Positions 17,258-63,804 of a stretch of 64,000 nt of DNA are shown one piece after another. The position numbers and the translations under genes were made by a program. How positions within the stretch are numbered: position 1 is the first letter of the stretch; every line of letters begins with the position of its first letter. The DNA is from a virus. The stretch spans positions 31,729-95,728 of the IMG/VR virus record IMGVR_UViG_3300047678_000160, one strand, 5' to 3'. Under the pieces are notes generated by a model. It was not told the origin of the DNA, did not search any database, and saw only the letters and a program-made list of their open reading frames with translations.

Positions 17258-17331
17258 GCGTTTGTAGCTCAATGGCTGAGCAGTCGTCTCTAAAACGATG
17301 GATGTGGGTTCGAGTCCCATCTGACGCACCA
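17258..17331 (+). tRNA. Amber-suppressor tRNA (anticodon CTA)
   Basis: Clover leaf: acceptor GCGTTTG with CTGACGC (one mismatch), D stem GCTC/GAGC, anticodon stem GTCGT/ACGAT around the 7-base loop CTCTAAA, T stem GTGGG/CCCAT, encoded CCA. U33 precedes anticodon CTA at 17290-17292, which reads UAG. The alternative AAA anticodon breaks the stem. It stands alone, 42 kb from the main tRNA array. The amino acid cannot be told from sequence alone. Confidence 0.85.
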
Positions 17332-42475: not shown

Positions 42476-44071
42476 TTAAGTAGCTTGTGAAACAGCTGGA
42501 GAGTATTGAAGAACCCACTTCAACGCTTTGGTCAAGGTATCTTTACGGCCAGCTCCTTGGATAGATTGAACTGGTTTCTTAGTGGATACAGTTACATCGT
42601 AAACATCTACGCTGTTATCATTCTTTAAAGCTACCTTTATTTTAGTCCATCTCTCAGAAGCCATTGCTGCTTTTTGTTGAGCTTTGGCTTCAACATCGTT
42701 CTTAGGTGGTAGATAATATACTTTCGTGTAAGCATCTTTGTTCTGAATGGTATCTACAACATCTTGCTTATCTTTAAACTTGAATCTTGGACCAGAAGAT
42801 AGAATCTTGATTGTATTGATTACAGCGTTTGCGTTGGGGTCTAGGGCTAAGATTCCTTCAGCTGCTTCTTGAGCATAATCCATAACATCTTCAAATTTAG
42901 CAAACTTTGCTGCTGGTTCTTTATAACGAATACGAATGTTCACCCAAGCCAGAGCTTGAAGCTGATAAGACGTTAGGCCCATCTTACCTCCGACTTCATG
43001 CATAATTTTTACAAGATTCTGACGGACTTCATCATCGCCAAACAGTTGCATAATGGCTACGTTAACTACAGCATCTTTGTTCTTTTGAAGTAAGGCTGCT
43101 CTTCTCTTAGCAACATCATCAACCTTACCTTGTTTTACAGATGTGTTATCGGTCACATGTTGAATCCAAGCTGAAACGTCTTCTGAAACCATCTTTTCAA
43201 GAGGTTTATCAAAAAACACACGAATCATCCAACGGTCAACTGTAGCTGGGTCTATCTTATCGTTCCATTTGAAACCAGGAAAAATGAGATTCATGAAGAA
43301 AGAATTAATCTTGGTCCCACCAATTTTCAGCTTACCATTCTTCAAGTCTTCGAACAGCTCATTCCTAGAAACCTTTCCATCGTGAGCTATGTAGTATTTA
43401 ACAAACAGATTGAAATTAGGAATCTTTGCATTGGACACTGTAATTTCGCTGAATACATCATCTTGTCCCTTTCTTGCTCCAGCGTCAACAGTTCCACCCT
43501 TGTAATCCTTCTTTGGAGCCAACAACTCAGCATATTTCGAACCTTTACCTTCATATGACTTCAAATAAGCCAACGTAGCGTTGTTCGTGTTGTCTTTGAC
43601 ATGTGTAGATAGGTTCAACAACATCTCTTTGCCGTTTGGTAAACCCAAGTCATGACTTACAGCTGTATAAAGCTTTGCTGCTTCAAGAATGTTTTGGTCG
43701 AGGGCTGTATTGGCTGAACAATAGGCACAGGCAGCCAAAAATAAACATGCCTCGTTTTCAGGCATACTTTTAAAAATCAATTTGTTAAAATTATCATACC
43801 AATAGGCGTAAGTATCGAATTTCTTTTTTACTTCCGGAGGAGCTTCGAGATATTGTTTGACTTCATCCTCAAGATTCTGCATCTCCAAAGTAATCGGAAT
43901 CTGTAGGTCAACTTTCTTATCACCGACCTTAAATGGAATTCTGACCGTGAAGGTGTCCTTTGATTGAAATTCATCGCCGGTCAACTGATTATAAAATTCA
44001 GGACCAGACATGGCTTCCAAAAGCTCTTGATAATCGGATTCGGTGAGATTTAAGAGGTTGGATAATTTCAT
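42476..44071 (-). CDS. Large conserved phage protein, minus strand, L-x-E leader
   Basis: 531 residues. The N-terminus (YQELLEAMS near residue 14) has the same L-x-E pattern as the other leader-bearing proteins. Later segments such as TVDRWMIRVFF and SYQLQALAWVNIRIRY are found in conserved unknown proteins of T4-like phages. No active-site motif is evident. It is the only large minus-strand gene in the window, so it has its own regulation; upstream on the minus strand is TATATTTATTG. Possibly packaged with the virion. Confidence 0.55.
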   Translation of the reverse strand: MKLSNLLNLTESDYQELLEAMSGPEFYNQLTGDEFQSKDTFTVRIPFKVGDKKVDLQIPITLEMQNLEDEVKQYLEAPPEVKKKFDTYAYWYDNFNKLIFKSMPENEACLFLAACAYCSANTALDQNILEAAKLYTAVSHDLGLPNGKEMLLNLSTHVKDNTNNATLAYLKSYEGKGSKYAELLAPKKDYKGGTVDAGARKGQDDVFSEITVSNAKIPNFNLFVKYYIAHDGKVSRNELFEDLKNGKLKIGGTKINSFFMNLIFPGFKWNDKIDPATVDRWMIRVFFDKPLEKMVSEDVSAWIQHVTDNTSVKQGKVDDVAKRRAALLQKNKDAVVNVAIMQLFGDDEVRQNLVKIMHEVGGKMGLTSYQLQALAWVNIRIRYKEPAAKFAKFEDVMDYAQEAAEGILALDPNANAVINTIKILSSGPRFKFKDKQDVVDTIQNKDAYTKVYYLPPKNDVEAKAQQKAAMASERWTKIKVALKNDNSVDVYDVTVSTKKPVQSIQGAGRKDTLTKALKWVLQYSPAVSQAT

Positions 44072-44187
44072 AAATGGTTATAGACAATAAATATAAGAAT
44101 GAGAAACGAATATGAAAGTGAATTTCAATTTATAAATATTTTTCTAAAAAAATGTCGTTTTATTGAATTTCATCTATATTTATTGAT

Positions 44188-44763
44188 ATGAATATCTGTT
44201 GTGATTGTGGTCTTCCGGTTTCCAGAAAAGGAACTTTACGTTGTATGAGTTGTGCCTCAAAGAACAGACCAAGAAGAGTGACAGATGAAGAAAAACAAAC
44301 AAGGGCACTAGAAATAAAAAAATACAAGGCGGAACTTTATCAAAAAAACAAGGAGAAAATATCACAAAGAAGAAAAGCCCACAGAGAAAAAATGAAGAAA
44401 GAAAATCCAGAACTTGTTAGATTGAAAGACTTTGGATATTTTTTGCGGTGGAAATATGGAATGGAAATATCTGATTACGAAGGTCTTATAAAAAAACAAG
44501 GAGGATGTTGCGCCATTTGTGGTCATAAACCTATCGACGGAGCAAAAAAAGAGAATAAATTGTATATAGACCACAATCATAAGACACAGAGAGTCAGAGG
44601 GTTGTTGTGTATGAATTGTAATTCAGCAATTGGTCATCTGAATGACGACTTGACAATAATAAAAAGTGCTTTAGAGTATCTGGAGATAAATCATAAAATA
44701 GATGAGAAAACTAGCCTCCATACAGAAAATACTGGATATTCGCCCAATCCCCGGAGCGGATAA
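44188..44763 (+). CDS. HNH (endonuclease VII-like) homing endonuclease
   Basis: 191 residues. N-terminal C-x2-C pairs, a basic helical linker, then C-x2-C...DHNHKTQRVRGLLC-x2-CN, the endonuclease VII-type HNH core with its zinc cysteines. It sits just before the split RNA ligase gene and overlaps its start by about 60 bases. A free-standing homing endonuclease next to an intein-bearing gene; it may promote spread of the region. Composition is more AT-rich than its neighbours. Confidence 0.8.
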   Translation: MNICCDCGLPVSRKGTLRCMSCASKNRPRRVTDEEKQTRALEIKKYKAELYQKNKEKISQRRKAHREKMKKENPELVRLKDFGYFLRWKYGMEISDYEGLIKKQGGCCAICGHKPIDGAKKENKLYIDHNHKTQRVRGLLCMNCNSAIGHLNDDLTIIKSALEYLEINHKIDEKTSLHTENTGYSPNPRSG

Positions 44764-45430
44764 AATTGTGGTTGTCAAGGTTTTAGGGTGGGAATGTGTT
44801 GCTCTAAAAGATGAATTTTCTGTTGGAGATGATTGTGTTTATTTTGAGTTGGATAGTATTCTCCCGATTGCCGACTGGAACGCTCACCTTCGTAAAGGTA
44901 GCGACGCTCATAAACCATTGAGAGTGCGGACTATCCGCCTTCGTGGCCAACTTTCTCAGGGTCTTGCCCTTCCTATGAGCCTTCTTCCTGAAGGCCAATA
45001 TGAACTTGGTCAAGACGTTACAGAACTCGTTGGAGTCAAGAAATGGGAACCTTACATTCCACCGGAAATGACCGGCAAGGTCAAAGGAACTCGCCCACAT
45101 TTCATTCCAAAAACGGATGAACCACGTTGTTTGGATGGTGATACTCTGGTGATAACCGAAGATGGCAAAAAAAGAATAAGTGATATTTGTAGAGAGCAAT
45201 ATCAAGGAAAGGCTCTCAGCCTCAATGAAATGACCGGAGAGCTAGAATACAAAAATATAACAAATCATATTGTTTCAAGAGCAAATGACGATTGGTATGA
45301 GATTGAAATAGAGGGTGTCCATAAGTTGATATGCACCGGAAACCACTTGATTTACATTCCTGAATTAATGTCATATCGCCGTGCAGACCAACTATCAATT
45401 GAAAATAATGTGTTATATACAAAAAACTGA
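44702..45430 (+). CDS. RNA ligase, N-terminal extein plus N-half of a split intein
   Basis: 243 codons. Residues 1-142 form the N-terminal OB-like domain and the start of the ligase domain of a DRB0094-type RNA ligase (ending FIPKTDEPR). From Cys at 45128 the sequence changes to an intein N-half: block A CLDGDTLVITEDG, block B HKLICTGNHLIY (T-x-x-H), ending after 100 residues at the TGA. The C-half and the rest of the ligase are encoded at 46475-47203. Protein trans-splicing would give a 344-residue ligase, the size of the Deinococcus enzyme. It seals RNA nicks. Confidence 0.88.
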   Translation: MRKLASIQKILDIRPIPGADKIVVVKVLGWECVALKDEFSVGDDCVYFELDSILPIADWNAHLRKGSDAHKPLRVRTIRLRGQLSQGLALPMSLLPEGQYELGQDVTELVGVKKWEPYIPPEMTGKVKGTRPHFIPKTDEPRCLDGDTLVITEDGKKRISDICREQYQGKALSLNEMTGELEYKNITNHIVSRANDDWYEIEIEGVHKLICTGNHLIYIPELMSYRRADQLSIENNVLYTKN

Positions 45431-45459
45431 TGGTTTTTGTCTTATGTATAGTTATATAC

Positions 45460-46509
45460 ATGAACAAAAAATGCAAAAAGTGCGAACAACATAAAAATAA
45501 CCCACGAATATTAAGGATACACTGGGGAACCATCCACCGCAATAGTTATAAAAATTATGAAACTTTCTATGGAGATTACATCCAGTTAGCTAGAGGAATA
45601 ACAGAAGAAAATATAAAAAATATAGTAGAAGAATATTCTCTCGGAGTGTCAAGGCCGGACCTACAAAAAAAATGGGGGTTTGATGTAACTGAAATTTTGA
45701 AATCTAAAAGTATAAAAATAAGAACTATATCCGACTCACGGAAAACAGAAAATTACAAAACTAAACATAGAAACACAACGTTGAAGAATTGGGGAGTAGA
45801 AAATATATCACAATCGGACGTTGTAAAAGAAAAAAAGAAGAAAACATTTATAAAACATTTTGGATATAAGAATAATTTTTGTAACGAAGAGATATTGAGA
45901 AAAGCAAAAATTATCCAACGAGAAAATTTTACACAAAACAGAGAAGAAATAATTAAAAGACAAAAAGACGGAATGATAAAAAATTGGGGCGTTGATAATG
46001 TATCAAAGCATCCAATCATATCTAAAAAAATATCCGAAACACATAAAATCCTAAATGCAAATAAAACAATAGAAGAAAAAAGAAAACAAACATTCGCATG
46101 TAGAAACGCTCTATTACAAACTCAATATACTGCACGTTCAAATTTAGAAAGAAGAATAGAAGAAATTATAAAAATACTCTCATATAAAATAAAATTTAAC
46201 AAAATAGTATGTCGAAAAAATGTAGATATATTATTGACAGAGATAAAAGTTATAATAGAAATACAAGGAACATACTTTCACGCCGACCCAAGAAAATACA
46301 AACCGACAGATTATTTTAAGCAATTTAACTGCACCGCTGGGGATATATGGAAAAAGGATAATAATAAGAAAATTCTATTTGAAAACAATGGATATAAAGT
46401 ATATCATCTCTGGGAAAAAGAAATCAACGAAATGTCAGATGGTCAAATAATAGAATTTATCATAAAAATTTACAATGAAAACAGTTACGGGAAAAATAAC
46501 ATCAATTAA
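45460..46509 (+). CDS. Vsr-like homing endonuclease inside the split intein
   Basis: 349 residues from the ATG at 45460 (an ATG at 45430 is also possible). The N-terminus has C-x2-C; the middle carries repeats around NWGVENIS and NWGVDNVS; the C-terminus has a PD-(D/E)xK/Vsr-type core with DILL, VIIEIQGTYFHADP and VYHLWEKEI. Free-standing Vsr-like endonucleases between halves of split inteins were described in fractured phage genes. The gene is extremely A-rich, unlike its neighbours, pointing to recent transfer. It overlaps the next start by 35 bases. Confidence 0.85.
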   Translation: MNKKCKKCEQHKNNPRILRIHWGTIHRNSYKNYETFYGDYIQLARGITEENIKNIVEEYSLGVSRPDLQKKWGFDVTEILKSKSIKIRTISDSRKTENYKTKHRNTTLKNWGVENISQSDVVKEKKKKTFIKHFGYKNNFCNEEILRKAKIIQRENFTQNREEIIKRQKDGMIKNWGVDNVSKHPIISKKISETHKILNANKTIEEKRKQTFACRNALLQTQYTARSNLERRIEEIIKILSYKIKFNKIVCRKNVDILLTEIKVIIEIQGTYFHADPRKYKPTDYFKQFNCTAGDIWKKDNNKKILFENNGYKVYHLWEKEINEMSDGQIIEFIIKIYNENSYGKNNIN

Positions 46510-47203
46510 AAAATTAAATGTAAAATCAAAAAGATATGATATATCTGTTGAAGATAATCATAATTTTTTTGCCAATAACGTTTTGGTTCATAATTGCCAA
46601 TCTAATCCAGATGCGCTGACGGAGTTGCTTGCGCTTGATACTGAGGTTGTCGGGACGATGAAAATGGACGGAACAAGCATTTCTTGCTACATCAAGGATG
46701 GAGCTTTTGGCGTGACTTCCCGTAACATGGAACTCATTGAAACTGAGGACAATGCCTATTGGAAAATCGTCCGTGAGTGCGACATTGAGGGTAAGATGCG
46801 TTCTTTCTTCTCTTGCAACATTTTCGGCGGTGACTACGTGATTCAGGGTGAGTTATGTGGTCCCGGCATCCAAGGCAACAAAATGGGTCTGGATAAACTG
46901 ACTCTGTTTTGGTATAACGTCTATCACGTTGGTATGGGTGATTATATGTCACACAAGATTCTGCGTGACTTCACTCTATCGACTGGCCTAAACATGGTCG
47001 AAGTAGTTTTTCAAGGAAAATTGCCTCAAAACACTACAATCAATAGCCTACTTGAGATTGCGGACAGACTCGATTACAAAAACGGCCTTCCAGCCGAAGG
47101 AATTGTTTGGCGTCCTGTAATGGAACAACGGAGTGAAACTCTTGGTTCTCGTATGAGCTTCAAGACAATCTCAAACCGTTTTCTTGAGCTCTATAAAGAA
47201 TAA
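46475..47203 (+). CDS. C-half of split intein plus RNA ligase C-terminal extein
   Basis: The first 40 residues are an intein C-half with block F (YDISVEDNHNFF) and block G ending VLVHN before Cys at 46595. The remaining 202 residues are the catalytic part of the RNA ligase: TMKMDG with the nucleotidylated lysine (codon 46661-46663), GDYVIQGELCGPGIQ motif and EGIVWRP near the end. Joined with the first half at PR/CQSN it gives an unbroken ligase. Acts in RNA or tRNA repair. Confidence 0.88.
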   Translation: MKTVTGKITSIKKLNVKSKRYDISVEDNHNFFANNVLVHNCQSNPDALTELLALDTEVVGTMKMDGTSISCYIKDGAFGVTSRNMELIETEDNAYWKIVRECDIEGKMRSFFSCNIFGGDYVIQGELCGPGIQGNKMGLDKLTLFWYNVYHVGMGDYMSHKILRDFTLSTGLNMVEVVFQGKLPQNTTINSLLEIADRLDYKNGLPAEGIVWRPVMEQRSETLGSRMSFKTISNRFLELYKE

Positions 47204-47204
47204 C

Positions 47205-47690
47205 ATGAGCAACCACAGCAACCCCCGATTCAACGTCACTGGCCAAGAAGAAGATGGTCTAGCGGCTACACTAGCGCTTTGGGGAACCATCAACCTCAGT
47301 AGCTATCAGATTGCAAAAGTAAAGAGTCCTTTGGATTTCAAGGGATACCGACTTGACCCATATCTCGGCATGGTTCTTTTTCAATATGAAATAGAAAACA
47401 CCAAGATGATTCCTTTTCCTTTTGACGAAGGAAAATATCCTGAGCGTCTTGCTTCATTCTTTTACAACTATCTCAAAAGTGATAAATCGAAAGTGTCTAT
47501 TCCTGAGAAGCCGGTCGGATTGTTAGATTACTACGCTGACTTTCGTGCGGATTTCCCACTGGATGTAGATGAAGACCACGACGGCCATAACGAACGTGGT
47601 TGGAGAGTTTCAACGGGTCGCTGGGGCCATGTTCTAAACTACGATGAAGCCATCTTCATCCGCCCAATTCATATTTGGTATGGAAAATAA
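47205..47690 (+). CDS. Hypothetical protein
   Basis: 161 residues from the ATG at 47205, directly after the ligase stop. Aromatic-rich, mixed fold, no motif. Starts a long run of closely spaced genes. Confidence 0.55.
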   Translation: MSNHSNPRFNVTGQEEDGLAATLALWGTINLSSYQIAKVKSPLDFKGYRLDPYLGMVLFQYEIENTKMIPFPFDEGKYPERLASFFYNYLKSDKSKVSIPEKPVGLLDYYADFRADFPLDVDEDHDGHNERGWRVSTGRWGHVLNYDEAIFIRPIHIWYGK

Positions 47691-59284: not shown

Positions 59285-59368
59285 GGTGTCGTTCCTATAG
59301 CGGCGAATAGCTCTGGCTCTTAACCAGATATACAAACAACGGGGGTTCGAGTCCCTCCGGCACCACCA
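59285..59368 (+). tRNA. tRNA-Lys (CTT)
   Basis: Acceptor GGTGTCG/CGGCACC, anticodon stem TCTGG/CCAGA with loop CTCTTAA, encoded CCA. The D arm resembles the other Lys tRNAs in the array. Confidence 0.85.
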
Positions 59369-59429
59369 CTTTTAGAGAACAGCTGGACGGAGACTCCGTT
59401 AATAAATTAACCAGTGTGGTTCTTGTCAT

Positions 59430-59521
59430 TCCTCGGTAGGCTAATTGGTAAGCCGGCAGGCTGTTAACCTGTGTAAGCTCGTAAGAGTTCGATGGAGGTT
59501 CGAGACCTCCCTGGGGAGCCA
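59430..59521 (+). tRNA. tRNA-Asn (GTT), with long variable region
   Basis: Acceptor TCCTCGG/CTGGGGA, discriminator G, anticodon loop CTGTTAA in stem GCAGG/CCTGT. About 20 bases lie between anticodon and T arm, unusual for Asn. Confidence 0.8.
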
Positions 59522-59529
59522 TTTCAAAT

Positions 59530-59605
59530 GCATCGGTAGCTCAATTGGTAGAGTGTCTGCCTTCCAAGCAGAATGTTGCAGGTTCGACTCCTGTTCGGTG
59601 CTCCA
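59530..59605 (+). tRNA. tRNA-Gly (TCC)
   Basis: Acceptor GCATCGG/TCGGTGC, D arm GTAGCTCAATTGGTAGAG, anticodon loop CTTCCAA in stem TCTGC/GCAGA, encoded CCA. Confidence 0.9.
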
Positions 59606-59618
59606 TTTTTTAGTATTT

Positions 59619-59702
59619 GCTTCGATTCCTGTAGCGGCGAACAGTTCAGACTTTTAATCTGACACACAAACATCGGGGGTTCGAGTCCCTCTCGGAGCAC
59701 CA
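59619..59702 (+). tRNA. tRNA-Lys (TTT)
   Basis: Acceptor GCTTCGA/TCGGAGC, loop CTTTTAA in stem TCAGA/TCTGA. Closely related to the copy at 63816. Confidence 0.85.
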
Positions 59703-59711
59703 ATTTATCAT

Positions 59712-59788
59712 GGAGTTGTAGCTCAACTGTATAGAGCAACTGTCTTCGAAACAGAAGGTTGTGGGTTAGAGTCCCACTTACTCCACCA
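59712..59788 (+). tRNA. tRNA-Arg (TCG)
   Basis: Acceptor GGAGTTG with TTACTCC, loop CTTCGAA between CTGT and ACAG, T arm with TTAGA in place of TTCGA, encoded CCA. Confidence 0.85.
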
Positions 59789-59794
59789 TTTGTC

Positions 59795-59931
59795 GGGGCG
59801 GCTAGCACCCTGAACGTTTGTATAAGATAGTCGCCATTTCATGGCCGCATGTGTTCGTAAGTCTCTCTGAAAAGAGAGAGCCAAACAACCGGTAATACAG
59901 CGAAACGTCTGAGGACAAACGAAGAATTTAC
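59795..59931 (+). ncRNA. Structured spacer in the tRNA array
   Basis: No tRNA fits. GGCGGCTA pairs with TAGTCGCC (8 bp, one G-T), and CTCTCT-GAAA-AGAGAG forms a tetraloop hairpin near 59865-59880. May be a small RNA or processing element. Confidence 0.4.
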
Positions 59932-60006
59932 GCGGAATTCATATACCGGCTATTATGTGAGTTTTCCAAACTTGACAAGGCGGCTCGACCCCGCCATTCC
60001 GCACCA
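59932..60006 (+). tRNA. tRNA, probably Gly (TCC)
   Basis: Acceptor GCGGAAT/ATTCCGC, T stem GGCGG/CCGCC, encoded CCA. Best anticodon fold uses loop TTTCCAA (TCC) with two G-T pairs. The D arm is weak. Confidence 0.6.
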
Positions 60007-60063
60007 ATTTCTGGCCAAGAAGAGGTAACACGGCGTAATTAACCTGTATGACCTCCTGAAACG

Positions 60064-60147
60064 TAATATGTTAGCTGTTCGGCTAGTGGCAGGCCAGCCC
60101 CCCCCTAAAGGGGCGCGCATAGGTTCGATTCCTATACAGATTAACCG
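60064..60147 (+). tRNA. tRNA-like gene with a run of eight C in the anticodon arm
   Basis: T arm ATAGG/CCTAT and a 6/7 acceptor pairing are present; the anticodon arm is GCCCC...GGGGC with an 8-base loop and no clear anticodon; CCG replaces CCA. Probably decayed. Confidence 0.35.
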
Positions 60148-60182
60148 CGACCTACGTTTCTTAAACTTTCTGTTAGTAATTT

Positions 60183-60268
60183 GGTGGCATCGCATAGCGG
60201 CAATTGCGCGGCACTGTAAATGCTGTGGCCTTCGGTCTTCGTTGGTTCGAGTCCAACTGTCACCACCA
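60183..60268 (+). tRNA. tRNA-Tyr (GTA)
   Basis: Acceptor GGTGGCA/TGTCACC, loop CTGTAAA, long variable arm as expected for Tyr, encoded CCA. Confidence 0.9.
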
Positions 60269-60274
60269 ATTTAT

Positions 60275-60351
60275 GGCGTCTTACTCAAGCGGTCCAAGAG
60301 GGTTCTCTGCAAAAGAACTATACGTCGGTTCGAATCCGACAGATGCCTCCA
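60275..60351 (+). tRNA. tRNA-Cys (GCA)
   Basis: Loop CTGCAAA in stem GTTCT/AGAAC, T stem GTCGG/CCGAC, encoded CCA. Confidence 0.9.
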
Positions 60352-60361
60352 TTTTTAATAT

Positions 60362-60436
60362 GCCGTATAAACATACATGGTGATGTGCGAGTCTTGTAAA
60401 CTTGAAAACTCAGTTCGATTCTGAGATATGGCTCCA
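60362..60436 (+). tRNA. tRNA-Thr (TGT)
   Basis: Acceptor GCCGTAT/ATATGGC, loop CTTGTAA, encoded CCA. A second TGT copy lies at 60615. Confidence 0.85.
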
Positions 60437-60448
60437 AACAAATTTTAT

Positions 60449-60522
60449 TGGGATATTGCATAGTGGTAGTGCCTGAGTCTTTGAAACTCGTGGTTATGGT
60501 TCGATTCCATATGTCCCAGCCA
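60449..60522 (+). tRNA. tRNA-Gln (TTG)
   Basis: Acceptor TGGGATA/TGTCCCA, discriminator G, loop CTTTGAA in stem GAGT/ACTC, encoded CCA. Confidence 0.9.
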
Positions 60523-60527
60523 ATTAC

Positions 60528-60603
60528 GGAAGCGTGGCTCGACCGATAAGGCGGCATCTTCATAAGGTGTATCATAAGGGTTTGACTCCCTTCGCTTCCC
60601 CCA
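60528..60603 (+). tRNA. tRNA with CAT anticodon (Met or Ile2)
   Basis: Acceptor GGAAGCG/CGCTTCC, loop TTCATAA, encoded CCA. Whether C34 is modified to read Ile AUA cannot be told. Confidence 0.85.
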
Positions 60604-60614
60604 TTTTTAAGTTT

Positions 60615-60690
60615 GCCCTTGTAGCTCAGCTGGTAGAGCGCGGTATTTGTAATGCCGATGTCGTCGGTTCGAACCCGTCCGAGGGCTCCA
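60615..60690 (+). tRNA. tRNA-Thr (TGT), second copy
   Basis: Acceptor GCCCTTG/CGAGGGC, loop TTTGTAA in stem CGGTA/TGCCG, encoded CCA. The body differs from the copy at 60362. Confidence 0.85.
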
Positions 60691-60704
60691 TTTAAGATTT
60701 TCAT

Positions 60705-60778
60705 CCATTAGAAGTGTTACGGTAGCACACACCGTTTGGGGCGGCGGAGACACAGTTCAATTCTGTGCTAGTGGACCA
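60705..60778 (+). tRNA. tRNA-Pro (TGG)
   Basis: Acceptor CCATTAG/CTAGTGG, loop TTTGGGG flanked by CCG/CGG, encoded CCA. Confidence 0.75.
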
Positions 60779-60784
60779 TTTTAT

Positions 60785-60860
60785 GGCGCGTAAGATTTGC
60801 TGTTGAATTACGTTCTTGGTAAGAACGACCAATGCGGTTAGACTCCGCAACGCGCATCCA
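60785..60860 (+). tRNA. tRNA-Thr (GGT)
   Basis: Loop TTGGTAA in stem CGTTC/GAACG, T stem GCGG/CCGC, encoded CCA; first acceptor pair mismatched. Confidence 0.75.
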
Positions 60861-60929
60861 TTTCAATTTGTTCAAACAGTGTTCAAAGAGGTTCGAAACT
60901 TGGAGAAGCGACTGTGGATTAGTATTCGG

Positions 60930-61001
60930 TGGGTTATAGCTCAGAGGTAGAGCGTCCTCCTAATAAGAGGAAGGTCGGAGGTTCAATCCCTTCTAATCGG
61001 T
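60930..61001 (+). tRNA. tRNA-like gene with AAT anticodon, no CCA
   Basis: D arm GCTCAGAGGTAGAGC and loop CTAATAA in stem TCCTC/GAGGA are good; the acceptor is imperfect and CCA is not encoded. An A34 Ile anticodon is unusual; possibly decayed. Confidence 0.45.
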
Positions 61002-61029
61002 TATTCAGAATATGAGTCCTTAACTTTAC

Positions 61030-61106
61030 GCAGATGTAGTTCAATTGGTAGAATGCTTCGTTGCCAACGAAGAGGTTTGTCGGTTCGAGCCCGACCATCT
61101 GCACCA
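61030..61106 (+). tRNA. tRNA-Gly (GCC)
   Basis: Acceptor GCAGATG/CATCTGC, loop TTGCCAA in stem CTTCG/CGAAG, encoded CCA. Confidence 0.9.
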
Positions 61107-61332
61107 TTTAAATTTTGTTAAAGATGAGAGTTCAAGTCACGTTTTGTTATTGTAGTTGATATGACTACCAAATTACAATAGTCGGTGACACTTAATACAT
61201 GTGCGAAATGCTCATCTGTAATTCCTTTTGAAAAAAGAAGAAATAAATTATGTAATTGACTACAGCAGACATCATAGATTTATCTATGTGTGGGTCGTCA
61301 CTATAACGCCCACTGCACTCTAAAAACTTTAT
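61107..61332 (+). other. 226-base spacer in the tRNA array
   Basis: No tRNA or convincing reading frame. ATTGTA and TACAAT form an inverted repeat near 61150-61185. Nothing else seen. Confidence 0.4.
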
Positions 61333-61404
61333 GGTGTCGGTTTGGGTAAACAGCATCCGTTGAAGGCGGAAGCATCTGGGGTTCGAATCCCCGAGGCACC
61401 ACCA
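61333..61404 (+). tRNA. tRNA-Phe (GAA)
   Basis: Acceptor GGTGTCG with AGGCACC, loop TTGAAGG, T stem GGGG/CCCC, encoded CCA. Confidence 0.85.
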
Positions 61405-61409
61405 CTTAT

Positions 61410-61484
61410 GGTCGAGTAGCACAATGGTAGTGCTCCGTCTTGATAAGGCGTAGGTTGTGGGTTCGAGTCCCACTTCGACCACCA
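61410..61484 (+). tRNA. tRNA-Ile (GAT)
   Basis: Acceptor GGTCGAG/TTCGACC, loop TTGATAA, T stem GTGGG/CCCAC, encoded CCA. Confidence 0.85.
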
Positions 61485-61494
61485 ATTTGAGGGT

Positions 61495-61782
61495 CTTTGC
61501 GACTCCTCAAAAAAGGAGTTCTTTTTCAAAAAGAAAAACACCTGAAGAAATATTTGGTATGTGCTCCGATATTAGAGTAAAAACCACTCTTTTGTGTAGA
61601 GCGCTAATAGAAATAGGAACAGAATACAAATGTGTTAAATGTAACACAGGAAAAACATACAATAATTTACCGATAGTTTTAGAAATTGACCATATAGATG
61701 AAAATTGGAAAACAATAGAAAAGAAAATCTTCAATTTATGTGTCCGAATTGTCATAGTCAAAAAACTAAGGGTTTGAAATAA
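61495..61782 (+). pseudogene. HNH homing endonuclease remnant, frameshifted
   Basis: Reads EYKCVKC, then VLEIDHIDENW with the HNH His-Asp pair; after the AAAA run at 61709-61712 the true C-terminus (ENLQFMCPNCHSQKTKGLK) continues in another frame to TAA at 61780-61782. One extra A would restore it. No clear start; the upstream part merges with a tRNA gene. Lies between tRNA-Ile and tRNA-Leu. Confidence 0.75.
61502..61526 (+). terminator. Terminator-like hairpin after tRNA-Ile
   Basis: ACTCCT (61502-61507) pairs with AGGAGT (61514-61519), loop CAAAAA, followed by TCTTTTT. Confidence 0.6.
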
Positions 61783-61785
61783 TTT

Positions 61786-61869
61786 GGGCATGTGGCGTAA
61801 TGGCAGCCGCGCAAGTCTTAGGAACTTGTTTCGAAAGAAGTGTGGGTTCGAGTCCCCCCGTGCCCACCA
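61786..61869 (+). tRNA. tRNA-Leu (TAG)
   Basis: Acceptor GGGCATG/CGTGCCC, loop CTTAGGA in stem CAAGT/ACTTG, variable arm stem, encoded CCA. Confidence 0.9.
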
Positions 61870-61874
61870 TTTTT

Positions 61875-61960
61875 GGTCGTGTGATGGAATGGCAGACATA
61901 CTTGTTTCAGAAGCAAGCACCTTAACTGGTATGAGGGTTCGAGTCCCTCTGCGACTACCA
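61875..61960 (+). tRNA. tRNA-Leu (CAG)
   Basis: Loop TTCAGAA in stem CTTGT/GCAAG, long variable arm, T stem GAGGG/CCCTC, encoded CCA. Acceptor has several G-T pairs. Confidence 0.85.
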
Positions 61961-62142
61961 TTTTAGAATTTGTATGATGCGTTGAGGTTTTCCCTACTCA
62001 ACACTTAGACGAGAAGCTCGTAAACATCAAATAGGTCAAGGGCGACGGACAAGGGGCAACGCGCTACCTACCTGTCGCTGGAAACGTCGGCTCCCCAATC
62101 GATATTCCACAATGGGGCAAAACGGTTGACTTAACAATTTAT
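61961..62142 (+). ncRNA. Structured 180-base spacer in the tRNA array
   Basis: GCGAC pairs with GTCGC, CCCCA with TGGGG, and GTCAA with TTGAC in nested order between 62036 and 62135. No reading frame or tRNA. Candidate small RNA. Confidence 0.4.
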
Positions 62143-62217
62143 AGCAGAGTAGAGTATGTGGTAACTTATTTGGCTCATAACCAAGCGCAACGGATTCAAA
62201 CGCCGTCTCTGCTACCA
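62143..62217 (+). tRNA. tRNA with CAT anticodon, second (Met/fMet/Ile2)
   Basis: Acceptor AGCAGAG/CTCTGCT, loop CTCATAA in stem TTTGG/CCAAG, encoded CCA. Confidence 0.8.
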
Positions 62218-62221
62218 TTTC

Positions 62222-62305
62222 GGGGGGATAGCTCAGTAGATTAGAGCACCATCAAGTAGCAATACACGATGGAGGTCGAAGGTTTAAATCCTTCTCCCCC
62301 CACCA
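62222..62305 (+). tRNA. tRNA-like gene with a 14-base anticodon loop
   Basis: Acceptor GGGGGGA/TCCCCCC, D stem GCTC/GAGC, T stem GAAGG/CCTTC and CCA are intact. The anticodon stem CCATC/GATGG encloses 14 bases, including a possible GTA-GCAA-TAC mini-hairpin. Confidence 0.55.
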
Positions 62306-62311
62306 TTTTAT

Positions 62312-62387
62312 CGGAGTGTATTGTCAGTGGTAGACGGCCGCCTTTGGAGCGCGGAGGCCGTGGGTTCGAATCCCACCATTCCGACCA
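62312..62387 (+). tRNA. tRNA, probably Pro (TGG), second copy
   Basis: Acceptor CGGAGTG/CATTCCG, T stem GTGGG/CCCAC, encoded CCA. Loop TTTGGAG read with one mismatch in the anticodon stem. Confidence 0.6.
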
Positions 62388-62392
62388 TTTAT

Positions 62393-62470
62393 CGTGATTA
62401 AGCTGAAGAACAACGAAGTGTCTCCTTTGGTGGAGAGGATTACAACGTGGAAGTCGTTGGGTCACTACCA
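62393..62470 (+). tRNA. tRNA-like gene, unclear anticodon
   Basis: Weak acceptor pairing CGTGATT/GGTCACT, stem TCTCC/GGAGA with a 6-base loop, no standard T loop, but ends in CCA. Probably degenerate. Confidence 0.35.
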
Positions 62471-62501
62471 ATTTAACGATTTAGGAGTCATGACCTAAAA
62501 C

Positions 62502-62576
62502 GTCGCATCTGAGCCTGGACGGACGCCTTCACTGAGGGCAATATCGATTAGTTGGTTCAATTCCAACGGTGCGACA
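62502..62576 (+). tRNA. tRNA-like gene without encoded CCA
   Basis: Acceptor GTCGCAT/GTGCGAC and T arm TTGG/CCAA are good; the anticodon arm does not fold normally; AAA follows instead of CCA. Confidence 0.4.
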
Positions 62577-62584
62577 AATTTTAT

Positions 62585-62658
62585 GGGAGTATCATATATG
62601 GGTATTATGCTGCGCTGTCTACGCAATCAAGCGAGTTCGAGTCTCGCTACTCTCGCCA
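62585..62658 (+). tRNA. tRNA-Asp (GTC)
   Basis: Acceptor GGGAGTA/TACTCTC, discriminator G, loop CTGTCTA in stem TGCG/CGCA, encoded CCA. Confidence 0.85.
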
Positions 62659-62663
62659 TTTAT

Positions 62664-62739
62664 GGGAATATAGTGAAATTGGATATAATAGCGCCCCGCG
62701 AAGGCTCAGTTTTGGGTTCGAATCCCAATATTCCCACCA
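62664..62739 (+). tRNA. tRNA-like gene with a disordered anticodon arm
   Basis: Acceptor GGGAATA/TATTCCC, T stem TGGG/CCCA and CCA are perfect; the anticodon arm has no U33 and only AGC/GCT pairing around an 11-base loop. Confidence 0.5.
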
Positions 62740-62743
62740 TTTT

Positions 62744-62818
62744 GCCTTGGTCGTTCAACGGATAGGACCACTGACTTCTAATCAGTTGATGAGAGTTCGA
62801 TTCTCTCCCGGGGCACCA
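62744..62818 (+). tRNA. tRNA-Arg (TCT)
   Basis: Acceptor GCCTTGG/CCGGGGC, loop CTTCTAA in stem ACTGA/TCAGT, T stem GAGAG/CTCTC, encoded CCA. Confidence 0.9.
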
Positions 62819-62822
62819 CTTT

Positions 62823-62907
62823 ATTGATGAATGACAGAAACGAAGGTTCAAATCCTTCTCTCCGACCACCGGGGATGGTTCAATCAGGTAAAACACTTCA
62901 CATCAAT
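62823..62907 (+). tRNA. Two tRNA halves in reversed order (possible permuted tRNA or remnants)
   Basis: A tRNA 3' half (T stem GAAGG/CCTTC, TCTCCG, CCA at 62866-62868) is followed at once by a 5' half (CGGGGA, D-arm-like). CGGGGA and TCTCCG pair over 6 bp, and the outer ends ATTGATG/CATCAAT pair over 7 bp. Confidence 0.35.
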
Positions 62908-62917
62908 TTCAATTTAT

Positions 62918-62993
62918 GGCCCAGTCATTACTAAGGGTAGGTAACGAAGCTTTCAACTTCGGAATCGGAGTTCGACTCTCCGCTGGGCTACCA
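62918..62993 (+). tRNA. tRNA-Glu (TTC)
   Basis: Acceptor GGCCCAG/CTGGGCT, loop CTTTCAA in stem CGAAG/CTTCG, encoded CCA. Confidence 0.9.
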
Positions 62994-63041
62994 TTTGCTA
63001 AGAAAAAAACAGTATAGTCCAAAGATTATTTAGCGTTCTGT

Positions 63042-63055
63042 CACGAAGCTTCGTG
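63042..63055. repeat. 14-base perfect palindrome in tRNA spacer
   Basis: CACGAAGCTTCGTG lies between two Glu tRNAs, with outer GTTC/GAAC also able to pair. Confidence 0.6.
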
Positions 63056-63085
63056 TGTCTACTTGGAACTTAGCATTATTTTTGT

Positions 63086-63160
63086 GGCCTCATAGTATAT
63101 CGGCTAGTATATCTGATTTTCACTCAGAGGAGCCGGGTTCGATTCCCGGTGGGGCTACCA
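63086..63160 (+). tRNA. tRNA-Glu (TTC), second copy
   Basis: Acceptor GGCCTCA/TGGGGCT, loop TTTTCAC in stem TCTGA/TCAGA, T stem CCGGG/CCCGG, encoded CCA. Confidence 0.85.
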
Positions 63161-63272
63161 TTTTGCAAACAGTATTGTTCATTCGAATATTAGTTTGGAC
63201 ACTTGACTGGAAGTGATTTAGTGGGCGGTTGCGAAACTGCATTAGAACACGATTTCATTTCTTTAACTTTAC

Positions 63273-63347
63273 GGCGCTATCGTCTATCGGTTAGGACGAC
63301 TGGTTCTCAACCAGTGGAGCGGGGTTCGATTCCCCGTAGCGCTACCA
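63273..63347 (+). tRNA. tRNA-Glu (CTC)
   Basis: Acceptor GGCGCTA/TAGCGCT, loop TTCTCAA in stem ACTGG/CCAGT, encoded CCA. Confidence 0.9.
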
Positions 63348-63351
63348 TTTC

Positions 63352-63427
63352 GGTTGTGTAGTCTTCGGGGTAAGGCACTTGCTCGACATGCAAGCTCAGG
63401 TGGGTTCGAGTCCCACCACAACCACCA
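63352..63427 (+). tRNA. tRNA-Val (GAC), C33
   Basis: Acceptor GGTTGTG/CACAACC, stem CTTGC/GCAAG with loop TCGACAT, encoded CCA. C instead of U at position 33 is unusual. Confidence 0.7.
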
Positions 63428-63739
63428 AATAGTAATCGCCAGTTCAGATTTTCTTTATCATCCTATCCAAAAGAGTTCGACTTCAACATGATTGAAAAAT
63501 ACGGATGGTATTCAGCAAAAAACAAAGGCGACAATCCAAACGGAGTAAGTCGTGACCACATAATTTCAGTAAGATGGGCATTTGATAACGGCGTGGAGCC
63601 AAAGTGGATAAGCCACCCAGCAAACTGTCAGTTACTCAGACATAATGATAATGTGAGTAAAGGAAAGAAAAAATCAATTTCTCTTCAAGAACTCATAAAT
63701 AAGATTGAAGAATGGGATAAAAAATATTTGGGCTTGTAG
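63428..63739 (+). pseudogene. C-terminal fragment of an HNH homing endonuclease
   Basis: The frame carries FSLSSYPKEFDFNMIEKYGWY, then GVSRDHIISV and HPANCQLL, the tail of a typical phage HNH endonuclease. Coding-like sequence starts before the ATG at 63488 and is cut by the tRNA-Val gene, so the zinc-finger half is missing. It ends in TAG inside the next tRNA. Confidence 0.75.
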
Positions 63740-63804
63740 TGATAATGGCAGCACAGTTGATTTGCATTCAACAGGTAAGGGTTCGATTCCCTTCAGGTCC
63801 ACCA
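63730..63804 (+). tRNA. tRNA-Ala (TGC)
   Basis: Acceptor GGGCTTG/CAGGTCC, loop TTTGCAT in stem GTTGA/TCAAC, encoded CCA. Confidence 0.9.

Follow-up and report, generated by a model that had tools for sequence, protein, structure and literature searches.

A putative mobile split-intein element with a homing endonuclease in a fractured phage RNA ligase gene

Introduction

In the virus record IMGVR_UViG_3300047678_000160 an RNA ligase is encoded by two separate genes with an endonuclease gene between them, which raises the question whether one enzyme can still be formed from the two pieces, and how the gene came to be broken. The window analyzed here is the stretch of 64,000 nucleotides that comprises bases 31729-95728 of this 95,728-base record, and coordinates are window positions unless a locus label (L0xx or L1xx) precedes them. 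The locus has the composition of a fractured gene, in which a split intein interrupts the gene for a conserved enzyme and an endonuclease open reading frame (ORF) lies between the intein halves. Fractured genes are known for DNA polymerase, helicase, ribonucleotide reductase (RNR), IMPDH, and similar host functions, and Dassa et al. are said to have described such genes with their split inteins in 2009.

The locus is read here, with high confidence, as a mobile fractured-gene element, in which the ligase would be rebuilt by protein trans-splicing and the element spread by its endonuclease. The anatomy of the locus and the identity of its parts are firm; the steps of assembly and spread are proposed from sequence comparison.

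Results

The Ligase Pieces and the Split Intein

Three ORFs follow each other on the plus strand: 44702-45430 (242 amino acids; stop codon TGA at 45428-45430), 45430/45460-46509 (TAA), and 46475-47203 (242 amino acids; TAA), the last of which starts within the 3' end of the middle ORF with an overlap of 35 nucleotides. The first ORF opens with the N-extein of the ligase (44702-45127, residues 1-142; a PHA02142 OB-fold domain followed by the segment up to KTDEPR, as found with TIGR02306 and Pfam), and the third ORF ends with the C-extein (46595-47203, Cys143 to Glu344). The RNA ligase DRB0094 profile TIGR02306 is divided between the two without loss, in agreement with the preliminary description of this locus, all coordinates of which hold. 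Profile positions 2-148 fall to the first ORF (E 2e-33) and positions 142-339 to the third (E 2e-19), so that the two together span 2-339 of 341; scored separately, the halves reach 115.7 and 69.6 bits against a cut-off of 151. Moreover, PF09414 (RNA_ligase) matches the C-extein (E 7e-20), and both exteins have the Naegleria gruberi RNA ligase as their relative in the PDB, the N-extein aligning with chain residues 4-150. As judged from these matches, the two-ORF enzyme is a DRB0094-type (Rnl5) ATP-dependent RNA ligase.

Removal of the intein joins ...IPKTDEPR to CQSN... and yields a ligase of 344 amino acids, in which the nucleotidyl lysine K165 of the KMDG motif (codon 46661-46663) lies 22 residues downstream of the junction. 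The joined protein aligns over its full length with eight intact phage or virus ligases, which bears out the junction and length proposed earlier; continuous ligases among those aligned include phiA009, SCTP-2, GAP32, pf16, My-WqHQDG, and others. The best matches in IMG/VR cover residues 2-344 with identities of up to 56%, and the identity to intact ligases reaches 57-58% at most. Arg142, directly before the junction, is invariant in the eight-ligase alignment and pairs with chain residue 150 in the Naegleria enzyme, of which the corresponding Arg149 is reportedly essential. A ligase-family search of the 95.7 kb record, which is possibly incomplete, matched only the two pieces and no second, continuous copy.

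In the first ORF, TIGR01445 (intein_Nterm; 37.7 bits, cut-off 24.5) matches the 100-residue intein N-half (IntN; 45128-45427, Cys1 to ...LYTKN, with blocks A and B) from residue 143 onward. In the third ORF, the match of TIGR01443 (intein_Cterm; 33.6 bits, cut-off 15.6) to the 40-residue C-half (IntC; 46475-46594, ending VHN) stops at residue 41. The intein-family profile search suggested with the preliminary description has thus recovered both halves at the lengths given there. In PF14890 (Intein_splicing) IntN takes positions 4-90 and IntC positions 121-155, each half alone scoring below its cut-off. IntN matched the Spl DnaX mini-intein and the NrdJ-1 intein in phmmer, and the Spl DnaX mini-intein is the PDB relative of both halves. 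All splice residues are there: Cys1, the block B TxxH (TGNH), the block F D...HNFFANN, penultimate H39, last N40, and Cys+1. A record-wide search for intein halves returned this one N-half and this one C-half and no further ones.

Since the splice residues are complete and the layout recurs in other viruses (see below), protein trans-splicing is very likely. Two proteins, N-extein-IntN and IntC-C-extein, would be made, the halves of which would associate, form the Hint fold, and trans-splice by the class 1 route with Cys1, Cys+1, and the terminal Asn. The predicted product is the continuous 344-residue ligase, in which Arg142 would be joined to Cys143 and the segment leading to Lys165 restored.

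The Homing Endonuclease and its Translation

The middle ORF had been described as an A-rich, Vsr-like endonuclease gene, a view that is sustained by its composition (49% A), its match to phrog_3339 (homing endonuclease, E 5e-13), and its structural match to I-Bth0305I. PF24308 also matched, the match to TIGR00632 (vsr) is weak and below the profile cut-off (E 1e-5), and the protein has DUF7487 repeats as well as a C-C-H-H motif near its N-terminus. Its start is more likely at 45460 than at 45430, which gives a gene of 45460-46509. An AlphaFold model with six relatives as input had a mean predicted local distance difference test (pLDDT) of 75.6, the catalytic part lying mostly at 80-91, and a predicted template modeling score (pTM) of 0.38, a low value with which only the catalytic domain is interpretable. 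The best PDB match of the model is I-Bth0305I (3r3p; Foldseek E 2e-4, template modeling score 0.80 by target), followed by Vsr (1cw0, E 4e-4). The six relatives all keep E230, D256, H274, and D300, which were assigned to the EDxHD motif by pattern. According to the model, the middle ORF is an EDxHD/Vsr-type homing endonuclease.

Between IntN and the endonuclease lies a predicted RNA hairpin (45433-45472, plus strand), the core of which, ATGTATA-GTTA-TATACAT (45444-45461), runs into the start codon of the endonuclease (AUG at 45460) and takes in its first bases. Mean pairing around this start is 0.80, the highest value among all the starts compared, which included 98 control gene starts. Related loci have similar hairpins close to where their endonuclease begins, and in six loci the RNA at this start is more paired than at most of the 98 control starts (Mann-Whitney p 5e-5, an optimistic value as L105 and L106 are related). 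The hairpin probably keeps translation of the endonuclease low. The 2009 description of fractured genes reportedly mentions control elements that arrive with the endonuclease.

The Insertion Site and Related Loci in Other Viruses

The window's insertion site is occupied in other viruses. Searching IMG/VR with the DNA pattern for K-T-D-[EQ]-x-R-C-hydrophobic-x-G-x-T returned two hits, both real. L099 carries a DRB0094 ligase fractured at the same codon, with IntN, an endonuclease (27% identity to that of the window over 348 amino acids), and an IntC that overlaps the endonuclease end. L098 carries a continuous intein at this codon, in a single ORF of 761 amino acids that combines ligase, intein, and a LAGLIDADG_2 domain (E 9e-27). 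A third DRB0094 ligase fractured at the same codon, L104 on a 319-kb contig, was found with a two-endonuclease profile, and the class 1 split-intein residues are kept in both L099 and L104. The same-site pattern gave four chance hits only in 84,980 bacterial and archaeal genomes, a lower bound given that an exact match was needed.

A single-sequence scan with the window endonuclease found no close relatives; the two-sequence endonuclease profile led to 8 loci and the six-sequence profile to 34. With endonuclease and IntN/IntC profiles, fractured ligases at other sites were also found in IMG/VR. Among the best 599 candidate stretches per scan, so that counts are lower bounds, at least 11 other virus sequences have fractured RNA ligases, 2 at the window's site and about 9 spread over three further sites close to the nucleotidyl lysine. 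T4-Rnl1 (RnlA)-type ligases are fractured in motif I, at KxDG|S, in at least six loci (L105, L106, L107, L121, L126, and probably L122), TIGR02308 and intein profiles supporting those that were tested. DRB0094/Rnl5-like ligases are fractured at KxHG|T in at least two loci (L127, L143; phrog_968 RNA ligase), and a further RNA ligase (L123; phrog_24030 RNA ligase, E 2e-60) is fractured at EKYDGEN|C next to the KxDG motif. The inteins of these other ligases are related to that of the window, and so are most of their endonucleases. In L122 (L122:3432-5636, Rnl1-like) the endonuclease match lies on the opposite strand and the N-half frame is only partly open. In L126 (L126:4484-4858, Rnl1-type) an endonuclease remnant remains, without a plus-strand ORF of at least 30 amino acids between open intein halves; decay of the endonuclease with both halves open suggests selection for splicing, and L126 is, on this reading of its frames, a late stage of the homing cycle.

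The same scans returned fractured genes of the known kind, i.e., for DnaE, RNR, IMPDH/GMP reductase, and terminase, as well as the DNA polymerases of Aeromonas phage Aes508 and Tenacibaculum phage PTm1, which are annotated as split. The scans were seeded with ligase endonucleases, and the apparent preference for ligases is not an unbiased one. In the Streptococcus phage vB_SagM-GXN1, the record of which is almost unannotated, two sets of intein pieces apparently interrupt the terminase gene (L150:2283-5244), with an endonuclease-like stretch within an ORF of 868 amino acids.

Tree comparisons bear on how the site was filled. Among the 87 sequences of the ligase tree, 15 intact ligases share a strongly supported clade (100/96) with the window; the four ligases that carry an intein at the window's site are scattered in separate clades, which forces at least three gains or losses. 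The endonuclease tree groups by insertion site, with three Rnl5 (84/94) and four Rnl1 (97/99) endonucleases together, and those of the fractured DnaE genes L131, L132, L135, and L137 (IMG/VR) in a clade apart from the RNA-ligase ones (100/99). The intein tree has the same tendency with weaker support, the L098 intein standing on a long branch without a firm place. Ligases that are scattered, whereas their endonucleases group by site, are as homing predicts. Synteny with relatives reveals the empty site, the minus-strand neighbor (window 42476-44071) lying about 90 bp from their ligase start. Together with these empty sites, the discordant trees make homing by the endonuclease likely.

Cys at the +1 position is present in 4 of 4 intein-bearing ligases versus 9 among the 77 that are intact (Fisher p 4e-4, kinship ignored), and the nearest intact relatives of the window ligase carry Leu there. 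This pattern is compatible with recurrent homing in which the flank was co-converted, and also with a Cys that was there before. The fractured-gene element would have entered a phage DRB0094/Rnl5 ligase immediately behind the conserved Arg of KTDExR; the most likely targets of the EDxHD endonuclease are empty ligase alleles, cut near this site, and repair would copy the whole IntN-endonuclease-IntC cassette into the cut allele.

Alternative Explanations

The ligase could instead be a dead or decaying pseudogene, broken by the element and with halves that no longer splice. Splicing is predicted from sequence, and the second and third ORFs are without strong ribosome-binding sites, but all splice residues and ligase motifs are kept, all three frames are open, identity to intact ligases is 57-58%, and other RNA ligases have the same layout with their frames open, so that this explanation is improbable. 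It is very improbable that the pieces stay unspliced and work as the two subunits of a ligase, with the Hint halves holding them together. The break falls after the OB-fold domain and before KMDG, which makes complementation conceivable; however, the junction is flush with the conserved Arg, and Cys1, Asn, and Cys+1 are kept although needless in such an enzyme, close relatives having Leu at +1. Several points also weigh against a mobile, trans-splicing element: the record may be incomplete, which leaves room for an intact ligase elsewhere in the genome; the window ligase is without a relative close enough for a ratio of nonsynonymous to synonymous substitution rates (dN/dS); and the IntC and endonuclease ORFs are without a clear Shine-Dalgarno sequence, coupled translation being assumed.

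Two further explanations concern the expression of the endonuclease ORF. The IntN stop is immediately preceded by a canonical slippery heptamer in register, A_AAA_AAC (45421-45427, plus strand), the -1 frame runs into the endonuclease ORF, and a stable hairpin follows, all of which would suit a -1 frameshift that yields an N-extein-IntN-endonuclease fusion with the intein acting partly in cis. Such a shift would not reach IntC, for which a second, +1 shift is required; the heptamer is absent at the equivalent position of L099, the region is A-rich, and the hairpin is explained by control of the endonuclease. The heptamer is probably coincidental, and frameshifting, rejected as the main explanation, is extremely improbable. 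Removal of the endonuclease ORF at the RNA level by a group I or group II intron, which would give a continuous intein-ligase frame, is hardly credible: no Rfam match at E<=1 was found in 44000-47400, and the IntN/IntC break is at the usual split-intein position, with its own stop and start.

Neighboring Genes and Other Features of the Window

An ORF with an Endonuclease VII motif (44188-44763, plus strand; DHHRN-type, PF02945 E 3e-20) overlaps the ligase start by 62 nucleotides and is missing in the syntenic relatives. Its C-terminal half has CxxC, DHNH, R, and CxxC-N, as in F-CphI-type homing endonucleases (PMC6083498), and it is a putative free-standing homing endonuclease, and as such a putative second mobile endonuclease insertion at the same ligase gene. 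In L098, a GIY-YIG/NUMOD3 endonuclease ORF (L098:6895-7689, minus strand) overlaps the start of the intein-bearing ligase by 50 nucleotides. As this mirrors the Endonuclease VII-type ORF of the window, the 5' edge of the ligase may be an insertion hot spot.

Elsewhere in the window, a dense array at 59285-63804 holds 29 predicted tRNA genes that cover most amino acids. ARAGORN predicted two tRNAs with a CTA anticodon (amber suppressor type), at 17258-17331 and 60071-60146, the second being doubtful. Among the 52 ORFs of at least 150 amino acids in the window, 1 ends in TAG, 30 in TAA, and 21 in TGA; TAG is avoided, or perhaps recoded, in this phage.

Discussion

RNA ligases, enzymes of phage RNA repair, join the genes that are broken by mobile split inteins, and do so recurrently. 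The preliminary description held that the layout was known and that its site in an RNA ligase might be new. A literature search outside of which the original 2009 fractured-gene description lay found no intein reported in RNA ligases, and none was noticed in any RNA ligase of the named phage isolates searched. Within what could be searched, the RNA-ligase host genes and insertion sites appear new, and the site recurs in L099, L104, and L098. More tentatively, and with somewhat less than even confidence, one split-intein/EDxHD lineage may have specialized on phage RNA ligases, having moved between four or more insertion sites across three ligase families, always near the nucleotidyl lysine, and the origin of a split intein may be traceable at one codon, where a LAGLIDADG intein and split EDxHD forms are found. 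How an intein becomes split could be studied by natural comparison at a site that holds the continuous form in one virus and split forms elsewhere. The fracture may make RNA repair depend on trans-splicing. Moreover, the inteins are candidate trans-splicing tools, and the ligases candidate enzymes for RNA ligation.

Among known systems, the split DNA polymerases of Aes508 and PTm1 resemble the window in that a conserved phage enzyme is interrupted by a split intein, with a free-standing Vsr-like endonuclease gene, annotated as such, between the parts. Compared with the known fractured genes, the window differs in its host, an RNA ligase, and in its insertion site. I-Bth0305I, which resides in a group I intron of recA, shares the catalytic fold and the E, D, H, and D residues with the window endonuclease but differs in its N-terminal DNA-binding part. 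The RNA ligases of Naegleria gruberi (5cot) and Deinococcus (DRB0094) have the same OB-fold and nucleotidyltransferase parts, KxDG motif, and length, whereas each is encoded by one continuous gene without an intein. Finally, the AceL NrdHF split intein (class 3; IntN of 98 and IntC of 48 amino acids; PMC7891396) likewise sits in a fractured gene with an endonuclease ORF between the intein halves, but it has Ala at position 1, a GIY-YIG endonuclease, and the RNR beta subunit as host, whereas the window carries class 1 residues.
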